From the IMG/VR virus record IMGVR_UViG_3300032236_000059, positions 1 through 34,277 of that record: a DNA stretch of 34,277 nucleotides; one strand, written 5' to 3'. The notes under the pieces were generated by a model. It did no database searches. It worked only from the letters and a program-made list of their open reading frames with translations, and was not told the origin of the DNA. Origin of the DNA: a virus. Every line of letters begins with the position of its first letter. The stretch's first letter is position 1. The translations under genes were made by a program, and so were the position numbers. Positions 4,207-24,288 of the stretch are shown here, in pieces.

Positions 4207-5648
4207 AATGATTTTTCTGCTGGTGTCATTACAGCCCAAACTGCTGGATCAACTCCAGTAGGTACTTTAGATGCTTGTTGAGAAGCGTTTGCATTAGGCA
4301 CAGGCGTTGGTTTTACAGAAAAAGTCCAATCCAAATTAGGTGCATAACGCTTGTAAAGCGTTTTAATTTTTTCTAAAGCGGCTAAACGATCTTCAACAGG
4401 CAAATTAGCGTTAGCAATATCACCTGCGGCTCTTTCGTACAATTTCACATCAAGATTACTTTGTTGACCTTCAAAGCGTGGTTGGGTCATTACAAGTTTT
4501 GTTCCCAAAATGTCTAATTGAGCATCAATAGGCGATCCTGATGTTGATGCACCAAAGAAACGATTGGCTTGTTTCCAGCCTTGTTCTGCATAACCAGCAG
4601 TTGCTTTTGGCAAAATTTCTTGAATTTCTTTAATAACTGGGTATGCTTCATAAGAATTTTTTACATTGTTTTGCAATGTTGTTAATTGTTCACCAGCTAT
4701 TTTTCTTTGTTCTTTAGGTGAAACACCAGCCATATTTACCTGCGGTGGAACAGGCAATTGATTTGCATTAAGAGTATTGCTTGTTGGTTGCATAGATACT
4801 GCATTTTGAGCATACGCTGGTGCATTAGGAGCAATAGATACCGCTGGTGCATTTTGTCTAATAACAGGGCTAGTACCAACTGGTGCATTATTAATAGGAA
4901 CAGGGTTAGCAACAGGATTAACAGCAGGAGAGTAACCACCACCGCCAACAGGAATACCCTCATCTCTTGCTCTGTTTAAAGCAATGTCTGCGTGTATTCT
5001 TTCACTTGCAGTCATTGCAGGTTTCTTGGTTTGTGCGGCAAAAGGTAATGTTGGATCGTTTACATTAGTCCAACCATGAATTTCTGTACCTTTGTCATCG
5101 TACCTAACATCTTTTTCCCACTTAGGCGGTTTAGTGAGTTCTGTCATAGCGTGTTGACGCAAAAACGCTGGTAGACGCTCATCCATAGAAGCAGTTAAAT
5201 TAGCTAATTCTCGATTTCCTGCCTGTGCCGCTACTGGGGCTACTTTTTTGTAACCAGCAGTTAATTCCATGTTAGGGCCATACATATCACGGGTAGTTTC
5301 CGTTGTAATTTGGCCTTGTGGGTTATAAATTCCACCCTGTACTTCAGGAGTGCCTTTTAGTGTTTGGTAATAATCAGCTAATCCAACTTTTTGTTGTTCA
5401 CGAATAGCTTTAGCCATGTCTAATTGGGCTTGGTCACCTTTTTCTAATGCTCTTTGACCAACATAAGTATTGGCTAATCCAGCTAAATGCTGTGTCCATG
5501 ACGGGGCAACAAAACGATTACCAATCATTTGACCTTGTGGTTGTTGCATACCTCTTTCCATCAACATTTCAGCCATTTTTTGTTGGCGTAAAATCTGTTG
5601 CTGTTGCAACATTTGTTCAGGCGTTAGTGTTCCAATATCAGCGGCCAT
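4197..5648 (-). CDS. Putative internal virion / ejection protein
   Basis: The 483-aa product has a Gln/Met-rich N-terminus (QQQQILRQQKMAEMLMERG), a long Pro/Asn/Ala-rich low-complexity centre (about residues 220-300) and a more ordered C-terminal part (about 310-450) with helix-forming segments. No catalytic motif is seen. Position and composition match internal virion proteins of P22-like phages. The central low-complexity DNA gives several shadow ORFs in other frames that I do not believe. Its stop overlaps the start of the next gene by a few bases. Confidence 0.5.
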   Translation of the reverse strand: MAADIGTLTPEQMLQQQQILRQQKMAEMLMERGMQQPQGQMIGNRFVAPSWTQHLAGLANTYVGQRALEKGDQAQLDMAKAIREQQKVGLADYYQTLKGTPEVQGGIYNPQGQITTETTRDMYGPNMELTAGYKKVAPVAAQAGNRELANLTASMDERLPAFLRQHAMTELTKPPKWEKDVRYDDKGTEIHGWTNVNDPTLPFAAQTKKPAMTASERIHADIALNRARDEGIPVGGGGYSPAVNPVANPVPINNAPVGTSPVIRQNAPAVSIAPNAPAYAQNAVSMQPTSNTLNANQLPVPPQVNMAGVSPKEQRKIAGEQLTTLQNNVKNSYEAYPVIKEIQEILPKATAGYAEQGWKQANRFFGASTSGSPIDAQLDILGTKLVMTQPRFEGQQSNLDVKLYERAAGDIANANLPVEDRLAALEKIKTLYKRYAPNLDWTFSVKPTPVPNANASQQASKVPTGVDPAVWAVMTPAEKSLWK

Positions 5649-5977: not shown

Positions 5978-7026
5978 AGTTGTCCGTAATCTACGGCTAA
6001 GTAGCCGTTTTCAAGGTTGATAACAGCTTCAGGAATAATGGCTTGAACTTCTTGTGCCATAACGCCAACAAACTTGCCATGACCTGCCAAAGGATGATCT
6101 TTAAATTCAGGTTTGTATTCGTATTCGTATACTGGTAAACCATTAGGTAACCAATGAATTTGCTTGATATTTTCTTTCATGCGTATGTCAGATGCCGCAA
6201 TAATTCCAGCACCACCTAGACCCATCAAGCCGCTATTAAAGTTAGCTTGTGCCGCATTTTTAGCGTTAAAATCACCCATTTGAGCGTTGTAGCCCATCTG
6301 AGCCGCACCCAATAAATCAGGGCCTGCGGTTGTAGCTTGCTGGGCAGAGTTTACAAACGATGGGTTTTGAACTTGTGAACCACTACGCAATGCACTTAAA
6401 GTATTTAGTGGCATATTGTAGTTAGTCAATGCTTGGTTGTAAGCCTGTTGATTTGCGGCTAAACCAGTACCAAAACCTTGAGTTGTTGCGGCCGCATACA
6501 AGTCATTTTCTTTTTGACCCTGTGTCATCATTGCCCGTTTGTATGCTTCTGATCCTACGGGAATACCCGAATTAGCTAACTGAGTTGTTAATGCTTCACG
6601 ATTTTGTGCAATCTGTGGAGCAAGTCGTTGCATATACGCATCTTGGTAATTCTGGCCAGCATTGATGCCTACTTGCGGTAAATTAGGGTTAAACGGCTGG
6701 CCCATTGTGCTCTGCACATTACCCAATGCAGAATTAATGGTTGAACCAAGTCCTAAACTAGCGTTATTTTGATTATTTAAAAGTTGTTGACCAACATCAG
6801 ATAATGATGTTTTAGCTGTCCAAGTAGGGTTTCCATAAGGATCTTGCCCTGTAATGGAATAGTCTAAGTTGCCATAAGGCGTTATTTGATTTACACGATT
6901 AGCGGCTGTAGCGGCTCTTGCCGCATCAAGATTACCTGAAGCCGTAGCTTGTGCCGCCCCTGCATAATCAGGGGCCGCTGGAGCACTTGGAGCAGGCCCT
7001 AATCCTAAAAATCCACCACCACCCAT
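5974..7026 (-). CDS. Virion protein with C-terminal S74-type intramolecular chaperone domain
   Basis: The 350-aa product starts with a Gly-rich leader (MGGGGFLGLGPAP) and has an Ala/Asn/Gln-rich helical body (residues 25-275). It ends with SDIRMKENIKQI, PVYEYEY, GVMAQEVQAIIPEAV and YLAVDYGQL, the signature of the peptidase S74 intramolecular chaperone. In many fibres this domain directs trimerisation and then cuts itself off. Here it sits on a protein without beta-helical fibre repeats, among ejection-type genes. It could be a trimeric needle-like or ejection protein. A catalytic Ser is plausible at the SDIRMKEN start, but cleavage cannot be read from sequence. Confidence 0.65.
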   Translation of the reverse strand: MGGGGFLGLGPAPSAPAAPDYAGAAQATASGNLDAARAATAANRVNQITPYGNLDYSITGQDPYGNPTWTAKTSLSDVGQQLLNNQNNASLGLGSTINSALGNVQSTMGQPFNPNLPQVGINAGQNYQDAYMQRLAPQIAQNREALTTQLANSGIPVGSEAYKRAMMTQGQKENDLYAAATTQGFGTGLAANQQAYNQALTNYNMPLNTLSALRSGSQVQNPSFVNSAQQATTAGPDLLGAAQMGYNAQMGDFNAKNAAQANFNSGLMGLGGAGIIAASDIRMKENIKQIHWLPNGLPVYEYEYKPEFKDHPLAGHGKFVGVMAQEVQAIIPEAVINLENGYLAVDYGQL

Positions 7027-11211: not shown

Positions 11212-12469
11212 TTAGGTTGTCAACACGCCTTGTAGGAATGAGTTGGAGCAAGTTAAGTTGCCAGCCCAGCCATACAATTTGACGATTGCATCTTGGTTGA
11301 TCGATTGACGCTCGCCACCGATAGGAACGAAATTACGCTCTTTATGTGGGCGTAGGAAAATGTAGTTTGTGTTTAGCAAATACATATATGTTGCGTTCTC
11401 TTGAGCACCGTAACCGCCACCCAAGATCACATCAGCAGACATACCACCACCGTAGAACTTGAGGGAAGCAAAGCCAGCCGCACCTTCTTCTACACCTGCG
11501 ATACGCTGAATAGCCTGTAAAGACTGAACATAGTAAGAGTAGAAAGTGTTACCAGCAACGATTGTGTCAACTTTATCAGTTCCACGAACAGACTTGATAG
11601 CGGCATCAGTCATCTTAGCTTGAATGTTTGCGTAACCAGTTACACCAGTTGTCGCTTGGTTCTGCCAAAATGTCCAGTTTGCACGGTTAATACCACCGTA
11701 TGTGCCTGTTGTTGGTGAAGTAGAAACAGCGGCCGCTAGACCAGTAATGTTCTTACCACCGTTACCTGTACCGTCACCATAGATGTCAGTAGAAATACGG
11801 TTCAACAAACGGGCTTCAGAAACTTGCATACGGCCGTCTAACAGGTCGATGATCTGTTCCTTAGAACTGTTTTGCAACATTTCAAGTCCACTCATTGTTA
11901 CAGAATCAGCGTACTGCGTAATGCTGAACTGAGCCGCAGAGATAGGGCTATCAGGGGTGATGTTTAATACTTCGTCAATCTTGTTACCGTAGTGGCTCTT
12001 TATCCGCTACTTCAGTATGTCACCATACTGTTCAGACTATATCATCCCTTTCGGGTGGGAAGCTCGTGGGGACATTACCGCTTTCGCTCGATCCCTAGTC
12101 GTTACACCTTCTGTGTCCCTAGCCCTTTCGGGTTACATACACAGCTTGGCTCGGTATTATCTTTAAACTCACCTAAATTTAAAGGTTTCCACCGAATTCA
12201 TCCCATTTGCTACAAAAACTTGCTTAATGCAAATTCATGAAGGGGCTAGAAGTCAACCCTGAATAACTGTTTGCGTTGTTTGTGTTCGGATCGTTGTACA
12301 TGATTTCTTGCAAAATCACATTACCGCCTGAGAACGGTTGAACATTTCCTTTAGCGTTCAAACGCTGTAGGATCGCATTGTTTTGTGTTAAGTTATCAGC
12401 CAAAATTCCGCTACGGCTCTGAATGGTAGTAGCGATAATATCGGTGATTGCTGAGTTAGCAAATGCCAT
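11212..12469 (-). CDS. Major capsid protein, split by a group I intron (exons 12469-12256 and 11975-11212)
   Basis: Two separated reading frames belong to one coat protein. Exon 1 encodes the first 71 residues (MAFANSAITDIIATTIQSRS... FSGGNVILQEIMYNDPNTNN, ending NSYSG). Exon 2 encodes YEVLNITPDSPISAAQFS, SGLEMLQNSSKEQIIDLLDG and DIYGDGTGNGGKNI, the classic core of coat proteins in P22/HK97-fold phages of this type. Without splicing, exon 1 stops after ten foreign codons (LTSSPFMNLH). Removing 11976-12255 joins GGG-T to AC-GAA, restoring G-Y-E and one frame of 326 codons (325 aa plus stop). The start follows AAAGGAAAT. It follows the scaffold gene, as expected. I see no frameshift or decay in either exon, so it should be functional when spliced. 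Confidence 0.85.
11976..12255 (-). ncRNA. Group I self-splicing intron without an ORF, in the major capsid gene
   Basis: The intron is 280 nt long. P1 pairs exon-end GGGU with intron GCCC (nt 10-13), placing a U-G pair at the 5' splice site. P10 pairs exon-2 GAAGU with ACUUC in the P1 loop, and the intron ends in G. Core pairings by intron position: P2 AUUUGC/GCAAAU, P3 GGGAUG (52-57)/UGUCCC (182-187), P4 UUCGGU (60-65)/ACCGAG (101-106), P5 CUUUAAA/UUUAAAG, P6 CUGUGU (112-117)/ACACAG (140-145), P7 GACUA (156-160)/UAGUC (217-221, within AUAUAGUC), P9 CAGUAU/AUACUG. GAAA loops cap CCC/GGG stems. Extra sequence between P7 and P3 suggests subgroup IA. There is no homing endonuclease; the plus-strand ORF inside is a shadow. 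Confidence 0.9.
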
Positions 12470-12492: not shown

Positions 12493-13596
12493 TTAAACCC
12501 GACCACCCTCTGCTTCTGACAATTGAGCCATCAACACAGAGCGTCTATCCTTTGCATCTGTCTTAGACACCTGACCGCTAGGAGTAGCGGACTTCGGACT
12601 AACAGCAGTTGCTTTGGCTTTTGCTACTTGTTGTGCCTTAGATGCTTGGGTATTAACTGAACGCAGGAGTTTGTCCTGTTCCAGCTTGTACGCTTCATCG
12701 TTCATACGCACAGCTTTGGCATAAGCCGATTCTAGGTCTTGGGCTAAACCTCGCTCAAGTAATTGAGCCATATCTTCCCTTACCATATCAAAGTGCGGAA
12801 ACCGCTCTTTGTTACTGCTTACACGGCTGATTTCTTGGGTCAACCGTGCATTTTCTTCTTGCTCCCGTATCGCTGACAGTTGCTGAACTTGTTGCTGGGT
12901 AGCTTGAAGTTGTTGCATTAACTGCTGTTGATACGGATCTACATACGCCTGTTCAGGCATCTGAAGTGCATCTTGATTTAATTGTATTCCATAGTCTTGT
13001 GCAAGTCTATGAAACATTTGAACCTTCTGCTCATAGGGGGCTTTGCTTAAAACCATGTGAGCACGGCCTAGATTATTAATCCAAGCTACGGGATGGATTC
13101 CTTGTGCTTGAAGTTCAGGGGCAAATTGGCCAATAGCTTCGGTTAATTGTCTAGCATTGTCAGCTTCACCCTTATAAGCAGATACGCCACGCTTGTATTC
13201 GGCTTCACGCTGGTTGGCATATTCAGCAAACTTAGCAAATTCCGCTTTATCTAGCGGTTTGCCTTCCTGCATCTTGTTCCAAACCTCGACATACTCTTTT
13301 TTCCAAGTAGTCGGGCGTTTTATTTCTGTTTCTTCATCAGTTCCACTAGCTTCTGCAACCAGTTCAGGTTCTTGATCGGTATCGTCTTGGCTACTGGTTT
13401 CTTCTTGCTTACTTTTGAAACGACCTTTTTCGTCACGGTCGTTGCTTTCTTCGCTACTTTCTTGACTGGCGTTTTCAGCTTGGATTGGATCGTCATTTAC
13501 TTCAATCTCCTTTTCTTCAAGGGCTTCTAATGTGCCTTCTTCGGCTTGGTCTAATGCGGCTTCTAGCAATTCTCTGCGGTCTAATTCTTCACTCAT
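12493..13596 (-). CDS. Scaffolding protein
   Basis: The 367-aa product is highly charged and mostly helical. It has an acidic N-terminus (about 1-95, with repeated E/D/S), the segment RPTTWKKEYVEVWNKM near residue 95, a Gln-rich coiled coil at about 220-250 (QQQLMQQLQATQQQVQQL) and a basic Lys/Ala/Ser tail (about 315-350) of the kind that binds coat protein. It lies directly upstream of the major capsid gene, the usual order in P22-like phages. Scaffolds direct procapsid assembly and leave before or during DNA packaging. No protease domain is seen. Confidence 0.75.
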   Translation of the reverse strand: MSEELDRRELLEAALDQAEEGTLEALEEKEIEVNDDPIQAENASQESSEESNDRDEKGRFKSKQEETSSQDDTDQEPELVAEASGTDEETEIKRPTTWKKEYVEVWNKMQEGKPLDKAEFAKFAEYANQREAEYKRGVSAYKGEADNARQLTEAIGQFAPELQAQGIHPVAWINNLGRAHMVLSKAPYEQKVQMFHRLAQDYGIQLNQDALQMPEQAYVDPYQQQLMQQLQATQQQVQQLSAIREQEENARLTQEISRVSSNKERFPHFDMVREDMAQLLERGLAQDLESAYAKAVRMNDEAYKLEQDKLLRSVNTQASKAQQVAKAKATAVSPKSATPSGQVSKTDAKDRRSVLMAQLSEAEGGRV

Positions 13597-15356: not shown

Positions 15357-17659
15357 TACAGAACTACCCAGCGTGACCCACTAGAAACTGTCACAGCTTG
15401 ACCTGAAGCTACGGTCATTGGCCCTGCACTCATTGCACTAGAACCGCTAGGAATTGTATAGCTTGCCGATACAGTATTGCTATTTACGACTATGCCGTTA
15501 GTAGCTTGAATGACTGTACCCTTGACGCTATTTGGGGAAGTTCCACCGATAGCAGGGGGGCTAGATAAATCTAATGTGCCACCTAATGTCAGATTGCCAG
15601 TAGAAGTAACCGTACCGCTAAGACTGATACCTGAAACTGTACCTGTACCGCTTACGCTAGTAACTGTGCCTGAACCCTTGTTATTAAAGGTTGTCCAATC
15701 GGTGCTAGTTAAATAACCGTTTACTGAACCTGTAGCGGCCGCCATGCTAATAGCTGGGGTTGCACCGCCTGAAGATACTACTGGGGCAGTTCCAGTTACA
15801 GATGTAACCGTTCCCTGTGGATTAGATGCAGTAGTAATGCTAGTTACACGCCCATAAGTGTCGATTGTTACTACAGGAATTAGGGTACTAGAACCAGTTG
15901 TTCCTGCCGTTGCTACACCTGATGCAAGGTCAATTACAGGAGTATTACCGCCAGTAGATGTAATACGCCCTGTTGTTCCGCTTACACTAGTTACAGTACC
16001 ACCGCTAGATGGGCTTGTATTGGTAATTGTAAAGTTAGGGTATGTGCCGCTAGTAGAAATACCAGTACCAGCAGTCAAGACTACAGTTTGGTCAGGAGCA
16101 GTATTGGTAATGTTTAATGTACCACTACTGGTAATAGGGCTACCAGTAACGCTAATTCCTGTACCTGCGGTTGCGGCTACGCTAGTTACTGTTCCAACGC
16201 TTACAGAGCCACCAAGACTTGTGCTTGTGCCATTAATAGTAATAGCTGAATTGGCTAACTGAGCATTGGTTATCGTGCCTGATAAATCAGTTGTAGGAAT
16301 AGTGCTTGATGCTGTCATTGCACTTGTTCCGCTACCTTTGACATATCCTGTAAGAGTAGCCGCACCAGTTCCACCATTTGCAACAGCAACCTGACCAATA
16401 ATGGTAGAAGCTGAAACTGCTAAAGGTGTGGTTTGTTTTACATAAATTGAACCATTAGGGCTATTTGCATAAGCCACGACACCCACTTGCACCGCATAAC
16501 CTGTAGGCGGTACTGTATTCATTAATTGACCAGCAGAATATGGGCTTAGATATAAAACTTGGCCGACTGTAAATGACCCTGTATTGCAAGGCGTAAGCAA
16601 TCCAGCAGTACATACATAGCCTACTGCACCTGAAGCAATAGTGCCGTTTGTAAGTCCTAATACCGCAGAAGTGCTAGACGCATCTGCTTTGGCAAGGGCA
16701 ATATTAGGGTAACTTTGACCGCTAGAAGTGCTTGTAACATATACAGGTGTGCCGTTAGCAATGCTAGAGCCAGTATTGTTAATGACCTTTAATTGGACTT
16801 CTTGCCCAAGATGAACAGCATTATTAGTTACATCATTAAAATAAGTTAAAGCCTTTTGTGTGCTGTCATACCATAATTCACCTTCTGCATAGCTTGGGGC
16901 AGATGTAGAAGTAAATGTTTCATAATCGCTAATAGTTGGATGGGCTTGCGTTGCACCTGTGGCTAATACGACATTGCCTGAACCAGTTGTGCTTGTAGCA
17001 GGAAAAGCACCGACATCGCTATAAGTTAAAACGACTGTACCTGTCTTGCCGTTTACGCTAGTTACTGCATCGGTATTGTCTATCTTCTGCCATGCCGAGC
17101 CGTTATATACCGCCCAATCGCCCACTTGCCAATCGGTAACACCGTTCAAATTGGTAGAACCAGCCACATTGACTACATAGTAATAACCCTTAGTTCCCAC
17201 AGAAGATGTCAGCGTAGGAGTATTTGTGCTTGCGTTCCATGTGCCTTGATAACTTAACGCTCCTAAAACTGCTGCTGGAAGCTGGCTAATAGGTACTGTG
17301 CCACTACCATCTAAAGTTGCAACGCCATTGGCTACACCTTTTTCAGTAGTAGGTATATAACCTGATACTGTTGCACCACTAATTGAACCGCCAGTAATTG
17401 TTACATTATTAGCATTTTGAACAGACATTGTGCCAAGACCAGTAATGTCTGTGCTTGGTACTGTTGCACTAGCGGTCATTGGAGATGTGCCATTACCCTT
17501 TACATAACCTGTAAGAGTTGATGCACCTGTACCGCCATTGTCAACAGGGACTGTTCCTGTTAATTGATGGTCAGCGTTCCAATCACTTGGGCGGACAACG
17601 GATGTGTCATCTCCGTCAGGTATCGTTGAAACCTTAGTATGCTTGACTGTAATAGCCAT
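15356..17659 (-). CDS. Large repeat-rich tail fibre protein
   Basis: The 767-aa product is Ser/Thr/Gly-rich. The N-terminus ITVKHTKVSTIPDGDDTSVVRPSDWNAD is the usual start of this fibre class. The segment NGGTGASTLTGYVKGNGTS with MTAS (about 39-71) recurs at about 425-457, and GTVTSV-type strands repeat in the C-terminal third. The C-terminus SGQAVTVSSGSRWVVL matches the fibre at 1919-2530. It is expected to be a trimeric surface fibre that recognises the host. It lies between portal and head-assembly genes, apart from the other fibres, so it may be a head fibre or a second adsorption organ. The DNA is repetitive and could recombine within itself. Confidence 0.75.
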   Translation of the reverse strand: MAITVKHTKVSTIPDGDDTSVVRPSDWNADHQLTGTVPVDNGGTGASTLTGYVKGNGTSPMTASATVPSTDITGLGTMSVQNANNVTITGGSISGATVSGYIPTTEKGVANGVATLDGSGTVPISQLPAAVLGALSYQGTWNASTNTPTLTSSVGTKGYYYVVNVAGSTNLNGVTDWQVGDWAVYNGSAWQKIDNTDAVTSVNGKTGTVVLTYSDVGAFPATSTTGSGNVVLATGATQAHPTISDYETFTSTSAPSYAEGELWYDSTQKALTYFNDVTNNAVHLGQEVQLKVINNTGSSIANGTPVYVTSTSSGQSYPNIALAKADASSTSAVLGLTNGTIASGAVGYVCTAGLLTPCNTGSFTVGQVLYLSPYSAGQLMNTVPPTGYAVQVGVVAYANSPNGSIYVKQTTPLAVSASTIIGQVAVANGGTGAATLTGYVKGSGTSAMTASSTIPTTDLSGTITNAQLANSAITINGTSTSLGGSVSVGTVTSVAATAGTGISVTGSPITSSGTLNITNTAPDQTVVLTAGTGISTSGTYPNFTITNTSPSSGGTVTSVSGTTGRITSTGGNTPVIDLASGVATAGTTGSSTLIPVVTIDTYGRVTSITTASNPQGTVTSVTGTAPVVSSGGATPAISMAAATGSVNGYLTSTDWTTFNNKGSGTVTSVSGTGTVSGISLSGTVTSTGNLTLGGTLDLSSPPAIGGTSPNSVKGTVIQATNGIVVNSNTVSASYTIPSGSSAMSAGPMTVASGQAVTVSSGSRWVVL

Positions 17660-19938
17660 TAATGAACTCCGATTATCTTGCCGTTTTCGTCACGCATAAC
17701 AGTTTTAGGTCTGTTGTGGTTTTCGTTGATTGTATTAACCAAGTCACCCAATGCCAGCGTCATCTGCTGATTGCTATGGCTGATGGCATCGGCAATCGGT
17801 TGCATAGGATGTTGCATAGATGCGGCCATAGCTTCCTCAGATAAATAGGCTTGAGCACCATCATCTACACCAGCAGAAATACGGGCTGTTTCAATCTTTG
17901 CACCGTTGTTAATGTGTGCTAACAAGACCTGAGTATTACGCTCGGTGTTCATTTTCATCTGTGCAACCTTCATATCCATCTCGGCTTGCTGACGGTTACG
18001 TTGATCTTCCAGTTGGAATTTAAGTTGATTCTCTTGGGCCTGATATTCTTGCTTGGCCTTTTCCAGTTCCATCTGCATCTGCATCTTCTGTTGCTCAAGT
18101 TGCATATCCTGCTGGGCCTTGGCTTGTGCGGCTTGCATCTTGGCTTGCTCTAACTGCATAGTCATCTGCATCTTTTGCATTTCAGGGCTAGGTGGCTTAG
18201 GTTGGCCTTCCATTTGTTTAGCTTGCTGACGGAATTTATCTGCGGTTTCGTCAATCAAACCTTCCATACCCTTACCAGCTTTAAACGCTGTTACACCGAA
18301 TTTAAGCATCTCCATAAGCAATGGGGTAAGTTCAGGTGCGTTTGTGGCTACAGGTAATGCGGTCTGCATGAAGCTACTTACAGCGGATAAGAACTCAACA
18401 CGGTCTTGCTTTTCCTGTTGTTCATCCTGATAAATCATCGAATCGCTAGTGACTTCGATACGGAAGTTCTTAGCTGGTTCATCCTTCAGGAGTTGCAGGG
18501 CTTGCGGTATAAGCTGTTGATCCTGTGGGGATAATTGCATTGCACCGCTGATCTTAACGATAGTGTCATCGGTAAAATGCTGGCAAATAATCTGTGCTTT
18601 GATCTGCAATAGGGCTGTAGCAAAGTTCACTACATCGTGTTGCATAGTCTTTAAACGCCCTGAAGCGTTGTTTGACTTAATGATTTGAGCACCAAGGGTT
18701 TCGTTAGGATCGGTTTGGCCACGCTGAATGTCAGCAATGCCCATGATCTCGTAGATTTGGCCCTTGACCTGCTCCATAGCTTGATAAGCCATGTTAAGAC
18801 CTTCAGCAATTGGCTTGATGTCTACAAGGTTAATAGCCCCCTGTAATCCACCCTTCTCGCTAAATGCACCATAGTTCTTAACTGGCAATAGGGCATTGTT
18901 CTCACCTTCGGAGAATAGACGGGCAAGGCTTGGCTCTGCCGCATCGTATACACCCCGAACTTTAAGTGCCTGAATAAAGCCATCAATACGGTCAGCCAGC
19001 GTGTCTAGCTGTCTAGCTTGGTCTTGGTATAGAACAAAGTCAGGAACAGGAACTAGGCTGTCTGTCGTGAGTGTAGAAAACATTGGCTTAGGACATGGCC
19101 AAAAGTTTTCAAGCTGTAATGGATCATCACGAACATCAAGGATTTTGCCCATTGACTTTGATAACCATAGAACTTGACCGCTGGTTTTATCCCAAATCTC
19201 ATAAATAACGGCTTCGTGTGAGCCTTCGCCCATCTTTTCAGCAAAGGTTTTAGAACTTTCAGGTTTGGTATCAAGCGGAATCTTACCGCCTAGTTCTTCA
19301 CCAAAGCGTTCAACAAGGGCAGGTCTACCCATGTAAACCTTACGCCATACCGCTGTAACTTCTTCCCATGTACGGGCAACGGTTAAACCAAAGTCACGCC
19401 AATGGACATAATCTACTGGAGCACATTCGTATTCAATACGCTCTTGGTTTTCACGATGGATGCCACCTTCAGTTTCAGCTTCATCAATATCTTCTGTGAT
19501 CTGATAGCCGTCATCGGGAGCACCTTCGCCTTCACCACCAGCTTCGCCAGTAATGTGTGGCTCATAGCGTACCCAAGATGTTCCACGACCACCAAGTAAA
19601 CGATCTTGAACGCATTGTTTCATGGCATTTGCATAGTCACCATAATGTTCAATTTCGTACTCTAATGCCCGTTCTAGCATCATTGAAGCTACACGGCCAA
19701 TAGGATCATTGTCCCTAAACCTGCGTGAAACATCAGGTCTTGGCAAGCGAGCAAATACCGCTGGGGTTATGGTCTGTACATTAGACCAAAGGATATTGAA
19801 TTTAGCGTTAGGATTGTTGCGACTGCGTTGGTCATCACGATACCGTTTAACAATCTTGTCGGCTCTACCTTCCCATTCCTTGAATGTACGCTCGTATTGG
19901 GCAATGCAGTTATACCAATCTTGGTATGTGTGATCCAT
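17659..19938 (-). CDS. Portal protein (P22-like)
   Basis: The 759-aa product is close to the 725 aa of P22 portal. Family features include NPNAKFNILWSNVQTITPAVFAR near residue 40, PRPDVSRRFRDND and a central ASGRLKTMQHDVV region. A long Met/Gln/Lys-rich helix at about 580-668 (QMTMQLEQAKMQAAQ...) matches the helical barrel that projects into the head. It forms the dodecameric ring through which DNA enters and leaves. It has a good ribosome site (AAGGAT) before the ATG. It lies downstream of terminase with one small gene between. This assignment is secure. Confidence 0.9.
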   Translation of the reverse strand: MDHTYQDWYNCIAQYERTFKEWEGRADKIVKRYRDDQRSRNNPNAKFNILWSNVQTITPAVFARLPRPDVSRRFRDNDPIGRVASMMLERALEYEIEHYGDYANAMKQCVQDRLLGGRGTSWVRYEPHITGEAGGEGEGAPDDGYQITEDIDEAETEGGIHRENQERIEYECAPVDYVHWRDFGLTVARTWEEVTAVWRKVYMGRPALVERFGEELGGKIPLDTKPESSKTFAEKMGEGSHEAVIYEIWDKTSGQVLWLSKSMGKILDVRDDPLQLENFWPCPKPMFSTLTTDSLVPVPDFVLYQDQARQLDTLADRIDGFIQALKVRGVYDAAEPSLARLFSEGENNALLPVKNYGAFSEKGGLQGAINLVDIKPIAEGLNMAYQAMEQVKGQIYEIMGIADIQRGQTDPNETLGAQIIKSNNASGRLKTMQHDVVNFATALLQIKAQIICQHFTDDTIVKISGAMQLSPQDQQLIPQALQLLKDEPAKNFRIEVTSDSMIYQDEQQEKQDRVEFLSAVSSFMQTALPVATNAPELTPLLMEMLKFGVTAFKAGKGMEGLIDETADKFRQQAKQMEGQPKPPSPEMQKMQMTMQLEQAKMQAAQAKAQQDMQLEQQKMQMQMELEKAKQEYQAQENQLKFQLEDQRNRQQAEMDMKVAQMKMNTERNTQVLLAHINNGAKIETARISAGVDDGAQAYLSEEAMAASMQHPMQPIADAISHSNQQMTLALGDLVNTINENHNRPKTVMRDENGKIIGVH

Positions 19939-23636: not shown

Positions 23637-24020
23637 TTATGTTATGGGTATATTTTCCTTGATTTTATCAAGTATTTCAATCATTACAAGACATCCGCCA
23701 CCTTTTTTTATTTCACCTCTTTGCAGAAATAAAACATCAATTTGGCTATCATCATCAAATACACCAGCACCATTGCCGCCTAAAGCATCCCACAATGATT
23801 TAACACGATTGTCCAAATCTTGCCTACGCTTGTTGGCAAAATGAATTGTGATCTTCATTTCAAGCCTAGCATCGCCCAATTTTGGCACTCGGTATTCGGA
23901 TACATAATCAGCCACTTGCTTTTTAAATTCAACGGCTTCTTTGCTCAAATAACGCCTATAACCGCTACTTTTTATGTAGTGGTTGACTGTTGGCGGCAAA
24001 GGTAAGTTAAGGACAATCAT
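23637..24020 (-). CDS. rusA: RusA-family Holliday junction resolvase
   Basis: The 127-aa product starts MIVLNLPLPPTVNHYIKSSG, with the LPLPPTVN-Y opening of RusA. It has the catalytic acidic pattern RRQDLDNRVKSLWDAL (D68, D70) and GVFDDDSQI (D89-D91). RusA homodimers cut Holliday junctions symmetrically, helping to resolve recombination intermediates before packaging. Length matches the family (about 120 aa). It overlaps the Ref-like gene by 14 bases, so the two recombination functions are co-expressed. Confidence 0.88.
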   Translation of the reverse strand: MIVLNLPLPPTVNHYIKSSGYRRYLSKEAVEFKKQVADYVSEYRVPKLGDARLEMKITIHFANKRRQDLDNRVKSLWDALGGNGAGVFDDDSQIDVLFLQRGEIKKGGGCLVMIEILDKIKENIPIT

Positions 24021-24288
24021 TTAATAAAATTTGGGTCTGTACCAAGAGTTGTTCTTCGGTGATGGCGTACTCTCTTTCAAAACGCTTGCGACCCATTCCG
24101 TGAATACTGGTATTTGATCCTCGATGGTGGTACGGGCAAAGGGGGATAACAGGGGCATTACTTCGTTTAGAAGTTCGTCTAATGTGATGCAATTCTGCTG
24201 GCGTTCCCTCATTGCCTTGATGCCTACATAATGAGCATCCCAATTCAGCAGTTTTTCGGTAGAGTTCTTTTTCGGCTTTAGTGGCCAT
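24007..24288 (-). CDS. Ref-like HNH nuclease
   Basis: The 93-aa product has CSLCRHQG (C18, C21), AELHHIRR (H34, H35), IPLCPYHHRG (C51, H54, H55) and SIHGMGRKRFEREYAITEEQLL. This matches the zinc/HNH core of P1 Ref-type recombination-enhancement proteins and related phage nucleases. P1 Ref is a RecA-dependent nuclease cutting at displacement loops. This short form holds the core only. It is paired with RusA, suggesting a role in recombination or DNA processing. Confidence 0.8.
   Translation of the reverse strand: MATKAEKELYRKTAELGCSLCRHQGNEGTPAELHHIRRTSKRSNAPVIPLCPYHHRGSNTSIHGMGRKRFEREYAITEEQLLVQTQILLNDCP

Follow-up and report, generated by a model that had tools for sequence, protein, structure and literature searches.

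The group I introns of phages usually reside in genes of nucleotide and DNA metabolism (PMC12350094). The closest described case to the one reported here is mycobacteriophage LittleE, in which a probable group I intron lies in the major capsid gene and RT-PCR, together with protein sequence, proved that it is spliced (Pope et al. 2013, PMC3706429). Our intron, found in the major capsid gene of a viral contig, resembles that of LittleE in that a U ends exon 1 and a G ends the intron, but the LittleE intron is 819 bp long, contains an endonuclease-like ORF and occupies one site only, whereas ours is 280 nt long and ORF-less. The BAKA tail-gene intron, which is ORF-less, 265 bp long and spliced (PMC3706429), is closer in form. 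Lactococcal phage Tuc2009 is cited in PMC3706429 as having a group I intron in a capsid-subunit gene, a likeness to our locus in intron class and host gene that goes by that description only.

At the sequence level, the 3′ 72 nt of our intron are ∼82% identical to Streptococcus phage Javan576 and 75–82% identical to Listeria and Twort phage introns. The likeness to the Twort, Listeria phage DNA polymerase and Javan576 introns is limited to the P7–P9 end of ∼70 nt, and their host genes are different. In Javan576 (L213, 2280–2575), the unannotated group I-like stretch separates two ORFs that both bear the annotation portal protein and that probably represent one split gene. The paper on freshwater cyanophage PA-SR01 was discarded as a capsid-intron precedent, as it mentions an intron-endonuclease gene only. 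A search of open papers gave no report of an intron in a gene of the phrog_9953 type, nor of any capsid gene with introns at many sites. Capsid-gene introns are thus already known (LittleE and Tuc2009), and the hotspot within one gene is the more interesting part of what follows.

The insert in the major capsid gene

The window is the whole 34,277-nt stretch analysed, positions 1–34,277 of IMG/VR record IMGVR_UViG_3300032236_000059. On its minus strand, the portal gene (17659–19938, phrog_12082) is followed by further ORFs, an 81-aa ORF (12224–12469) and a 227-aa ORF (11212–11895), and the ORF at 12493–13596 (−) has the position expected of a scaffold gene. The capsid frame is broken on read-through, and without splicing translation ends at 81 aa. 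Among all T^…G^ pairs round the break there is a single best splice solution, an intron of 280 nt from 12255 to 11976 (−), which reproduces the exact coordinates (11976–12255) given by an initial annotation of this DNA. Exon 1 (12256–12469, minus strand), assigned from the ORF list and the phrog_9953 match, holds codons 1–71 and the first base of codon 72; exon 2 (11212–11975, minus strand), assigned from the spliced ORF, the same match and relatives, holds the remainder of codon 72 through to the stop. Excision joins …SYSG-Y-EVLNITP into an ORF of 325 aa, and the protein of an uninterrupted relative (L002) is 100% identical to this spliced product, so that the restored length and the SGYEVLNITP junction proposed in the same annotation both hold. 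The product matches phrog_9953, the Mx8-like major head protein, at full length (residues 3–325, E 1.3e-92); this assignment came from PHROGs, as the spliced capsid matched no family in Pfam. It is ∼50% identical to the capsids of Stenotrophomonas phage BUCT555 and Myxococcus phage Mx8. A prophage search for the host matched two uncultured bins only.

Searching the minus strand with the Rfam group I model (cmscan), as had been proposed, gave a match to RF00028 (Intron_gpI) at 12264–12013 (−) with 43.6 bits and E 9e-10. The curated gathering score is 50 bits, which this match does not reach. The window intron therefore gives no match at the gathering threshold and is missed by default Rfam settings, and we used an E-value search instead. 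Window-family introns elsewhere in the capsid gene exceed the threshold, with 96.2 bits in L099, 72.2 in L113 and 53.3 in L169. The folding z-score of the insert is −2.66, and none of 100 shuffles was equally stable. No sense ORF occurs within it, and an antisense ORF of 82 aa was rejected as a gene, being not conserved among the 14 copies and without a Pfam match. Judged from these features, the 280-nt insert is almost certainly a self-removing group I intron without genes of its own. One other origin is an assembly artefact or chimera, in which unrelated DNA was joined inside the capsid gene; the contig does come from metagenome data, but 13 further loci, retrieved from other samples by a pattern search, have this intron at the identical nucleotide, which leaves such an origin with a negligible probability.

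Core helices and splice-site logic

The predicted P1 (12243–12259, minus strand, as are all features below) pairs exon GGGU (12259–12256) and U12255 with AGCCC (12247–12243), assigned from the sequence and the exon GGG codon, with a U·G at the 5′ splice site; the last intron base is G. The intron side of P10, ACUUC (12249–12253), is complementary to GAAGU of exon 2 (11973–11969). Compensatory changes are seen in P3 (5′ arm UGGGA, 12201–12205; 3′ arm UCCCA, 12060–12056; 5/5 pairs), in P4 (UUCGGU, 12191–12196, with ACCGAG, 12155–12150; 4/6 pairs), in the P6a hairpin UGUGU/ACACA (12112–12143; also among same-site copies, e.g. L082) and in P9 (CAGUAUG-GUGA-CAUACUG, 12013–12030). P7, the guanosine-binding helix of group I introns, consists of GACUA (12096–12100) and UAGUC (12039–12035), with compensatory change in 2/5 pairs, as in L099, where it reads GAGCA/UGCUC. 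P8 (CCC-GAAA-GGG, 12046–12055) was placed by the hand-anchored core alignment, and the P9.2 hairpin GUAG/CUAC (11989–12010), with a conserved AUAAAGAG loop, by alignment; the window copy has one internal mismatch in P9.2. Every element listed by the initial annotation, namely P1 with its U·G, P3, P4, P6, P7, P9, P10 and the terminal G, is therefore present in the sequence.

In addition, the alignment places an extra hairpin region of the P7.1/P7.2 type at 12061–12095, between the P7 5′ arm and the P3 3′ arm. It has GGGA/UCCC with GCGAAAGC in the window and GGGG/CCCC with GAGAAAUC in other same-site copies. Extra stems at this position are a mark of IA introns, and this hairpin, with its compensatory change, points to subgroup IA as the probable class.

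Across the family, two-sided change occurs in 24 of 34 core pairs, and all core helices show compensatory change. Pairing was found in 271 of 272 cells, compared to a mean of 206 (maximum 231) when the 3′ arms were exchanged, although hand anchoring of the arms biases this count towards pairing. This anchoring was used because the MAFFT core alignment misplaced P3 in distant copies; the P3 arms adjoin conserved anchors, and six different P3 sequences occur among eight introns. Taken with the RF00028 match and the lack of a sense ORF, the covarying core bears out the earlier identification, and there is strong support for an ORF-less group I intron with exact splice sites, whose removal would restore the major capsid protein.

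Immediately before the window splice site, 14/14 carriers have a GGG codon, compared to 2/99 distinct uninterrupted genes (Fisher P 4e-16, for carriers that share ancestry), and in all 14 same-site copies it is followed by U, giving GGGU/AGCCC in P1. This bias is explained by P1, which requires that exon match. At another site in the gene, codon 62, the wobble base of the exon changes in step with the intron's guide in 7/7 copies (CCGU with GCGG; CCAU with GUGG). These data bear on whether the insert could be the relic of a group I intron that has lost its ability to splice, with the capsid gene dead or the truncated 81-aa product in use. The sub-threshold Rfam score would fit such a relic, as would a search of viral contigs for the spliced-junction pattern, which no contig matched. 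However, the core helices have been kept through compensatory changes, the P1/exon match is retained, both exons are open and conserved, and nothing in the window ORF list stood out as a second capsid gene; we consider a dead intron very improbable.

Distribution and mobility at the window site

The 80 nearest capsid genes from viral contigs are all free of the insert at the window site. Relatives containing the inserted residues, the case named beforehand as speaking against an intron, were thus not encountered among them, and by this comparison of sequences the insert is not ancestral to the capsid gene. Same-site introns are on average 96.5% identical among carriers, while exon 2 identity is 93% over the first 60 nt and 79–88% beyond, being highest beside the intron. 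Since the non-coding intron is more alike than the surrounding gene, with a gradient in the flank, recent gene conversion is the likely cause.

No endonuclease ORF is conserved inside the window intron, and no GIY-YIG or HNH_3 endonuclease gene was found in the whole window record, by a search that, for GIY-YIG, missed a weak gene in L186 detected by a direct scan. In T4-like phages, ORF-less introns are moved by trans-acting endonucleases (PMC3984707). Elsewhere in the window, at 24007–24288, there is a Ref-like RecA-dependent nuclease (PF16786) adjoining a RusA resolvase gene, which is not a known homing enzyme.

The initial annotation had further suggested that the intron could couple capsid production to splicing conditions. 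If retained as a regulator, it might for instance hold back capsid synthesis until guanosine, temperature or the late stage of infection permits splicing. No other virion gene is in such demand as this one, translation of the unspliced message stops at 81 aa and several relatives carry introns in the same gene, all of which would suit a regulator. In contrast, the distribution is sporadic, with any intron in about 9/55 sampled capsid genes (a rough prevalence, as the contigs were sampled through an exon pattern that presupposes one codon choice), and sites and families differ between phages. The gene-conversion signature and the LittleE capsid intron, reported as efficiently spliced (PMC3706429), likewise argue against regulation. 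The proposed coupling finds no support in these data, and we regard a regulatory role as improbable.

We are instead highly confident in reading the insert as a group I (IA-like) ribozyme whose removal restores the 325-aa head protein, and as a selfish, low-cost element rather than a regulator, moved by gene conversion and with relatives spread to other sites. Its selfish appearance rests on its sporadic occurrence, the conversion signature and the invasion of eight sites by two families described below. According to this model, the ribozyme would fold in the late capsid transcript, a guanosine-dependent cut would follow GGGU at 12256, and exon 1 would be joined to exon 2 at 11975 to encode the major head protein. 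Between related phages, the intron would move by DNA gene conversion at the window site, probably initiated by an endonuclease supplied in trans, as the intron encodes none. Related introns would have reached other sites of the capsid gene, plausibly by guide-directed reverse splicing into abundant mRNA.

Two intron families at eight sites of the capsid gene

Using tblastn of the spliced capsid against all fetched loci, we found group I-like inserts at eight places of the gene: codons 27, 49/50, 53, 62, 72, 145/146, 151 and 309/310 in window numbering. The window-type family occupies 27, 49/50, 72 and 145/146 and also occurs in L099, and a second family occupies 53, 62, 151 and 309/310. As Rfam gave nothing for the second family at E 0.1 despite its group I marks, we recognised its members from sequence, splice logic and the presence of a P7-type pair; its apparent membership of group I is judged from splice logic together with core motifs. 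With similar introns at seven or more further sites in relatives of the window phage, the capsid gene is an unusual hotspot for selfish elements.

Three ORF-less introns can share a single capsid gene, as in L095 (4738–6469; codons 53, 72 and 309/310) and also in L089. GIY-YIG ORFs are held by window-family introns at other sites, in L186 and L099. In L186 (9684–10463), a 694-nt intron at codon 27 carries the endonuclease gene (Pfam E 2e-5). In L099 (784–4105), at least four or five inserts, with boundaries partly uncertain, interrupt a distant capsid gene on an 88-kb contig, and one of these inserts has a GIY-YIG gene. The L099 insert near codon 260 perhaps has a LAGLIDADG-like gene on the other strand, a reading based on a GLFDGEG motif seen by eye, for which Pfam gave nothing.

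Furthermore, in the 19 whole records other than L099, the family-marker matches equal the introns mapped in the capsid gene, with none left for other genes. The second-family core was detected in 38 contigs, 36 of which have a phrog_9953-type capsid gene. In the two others, the second-family intron lies in a tape-measure-like gene (L175, near 5403–5433) and, judged by eye, apparently in an unrelated capsid gene (L183, near 6219–6249), where the exon again ends in ATCCT.

Second-family introns group by site, except that the tree places those at codon 151 inside the clade of codon 53 (supports 0.95 and 0.89), and they share ∼92% identity with the codon-53 introns of their sublineage. Between the two targets, only 10 of 28 bases agree, with CCT^C at the join, and by inspection one guide can pair with both exons. 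This circumstantial pattern would fit guide-directed reverse splicing, not extended DNA recognition. Related introns at several sites of rDNA have likewise been explained by reverse splicing (PMC1299323, PMC3984707), on a case that is also circumstantial (PMC3984707). There, as here, one intron lineage sits at different sites of one abundant RNA, although the rDNA introns sit in rRNA and the hotspot introns in phage mRNA. Tentatively, the capsid gene could be a dedicated group I habitat: in the genomes searched, the two families would be confined to it, at eight or more sites, and new sites inside it would arise as the guide directs reverse splicing into its very abundant mRNA; we put this forward as a possibility less probable than not. 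To our knowledge, RNA-level transposition of a group I intron in a phage has long been proposed but never directly shown.

Intron-bearing capsid genes are easily called broken, and the default Rfam threshold misses the window intron. With eight sites, two families, one gene and a nested clade, these phages offer a natural system for asking how ORF-less group I introns move, and especially whether group I introns reverse-splice into abundant mRNA. Up to three introns in the message that the phage needs most are also a strong test of splicing efficiency.
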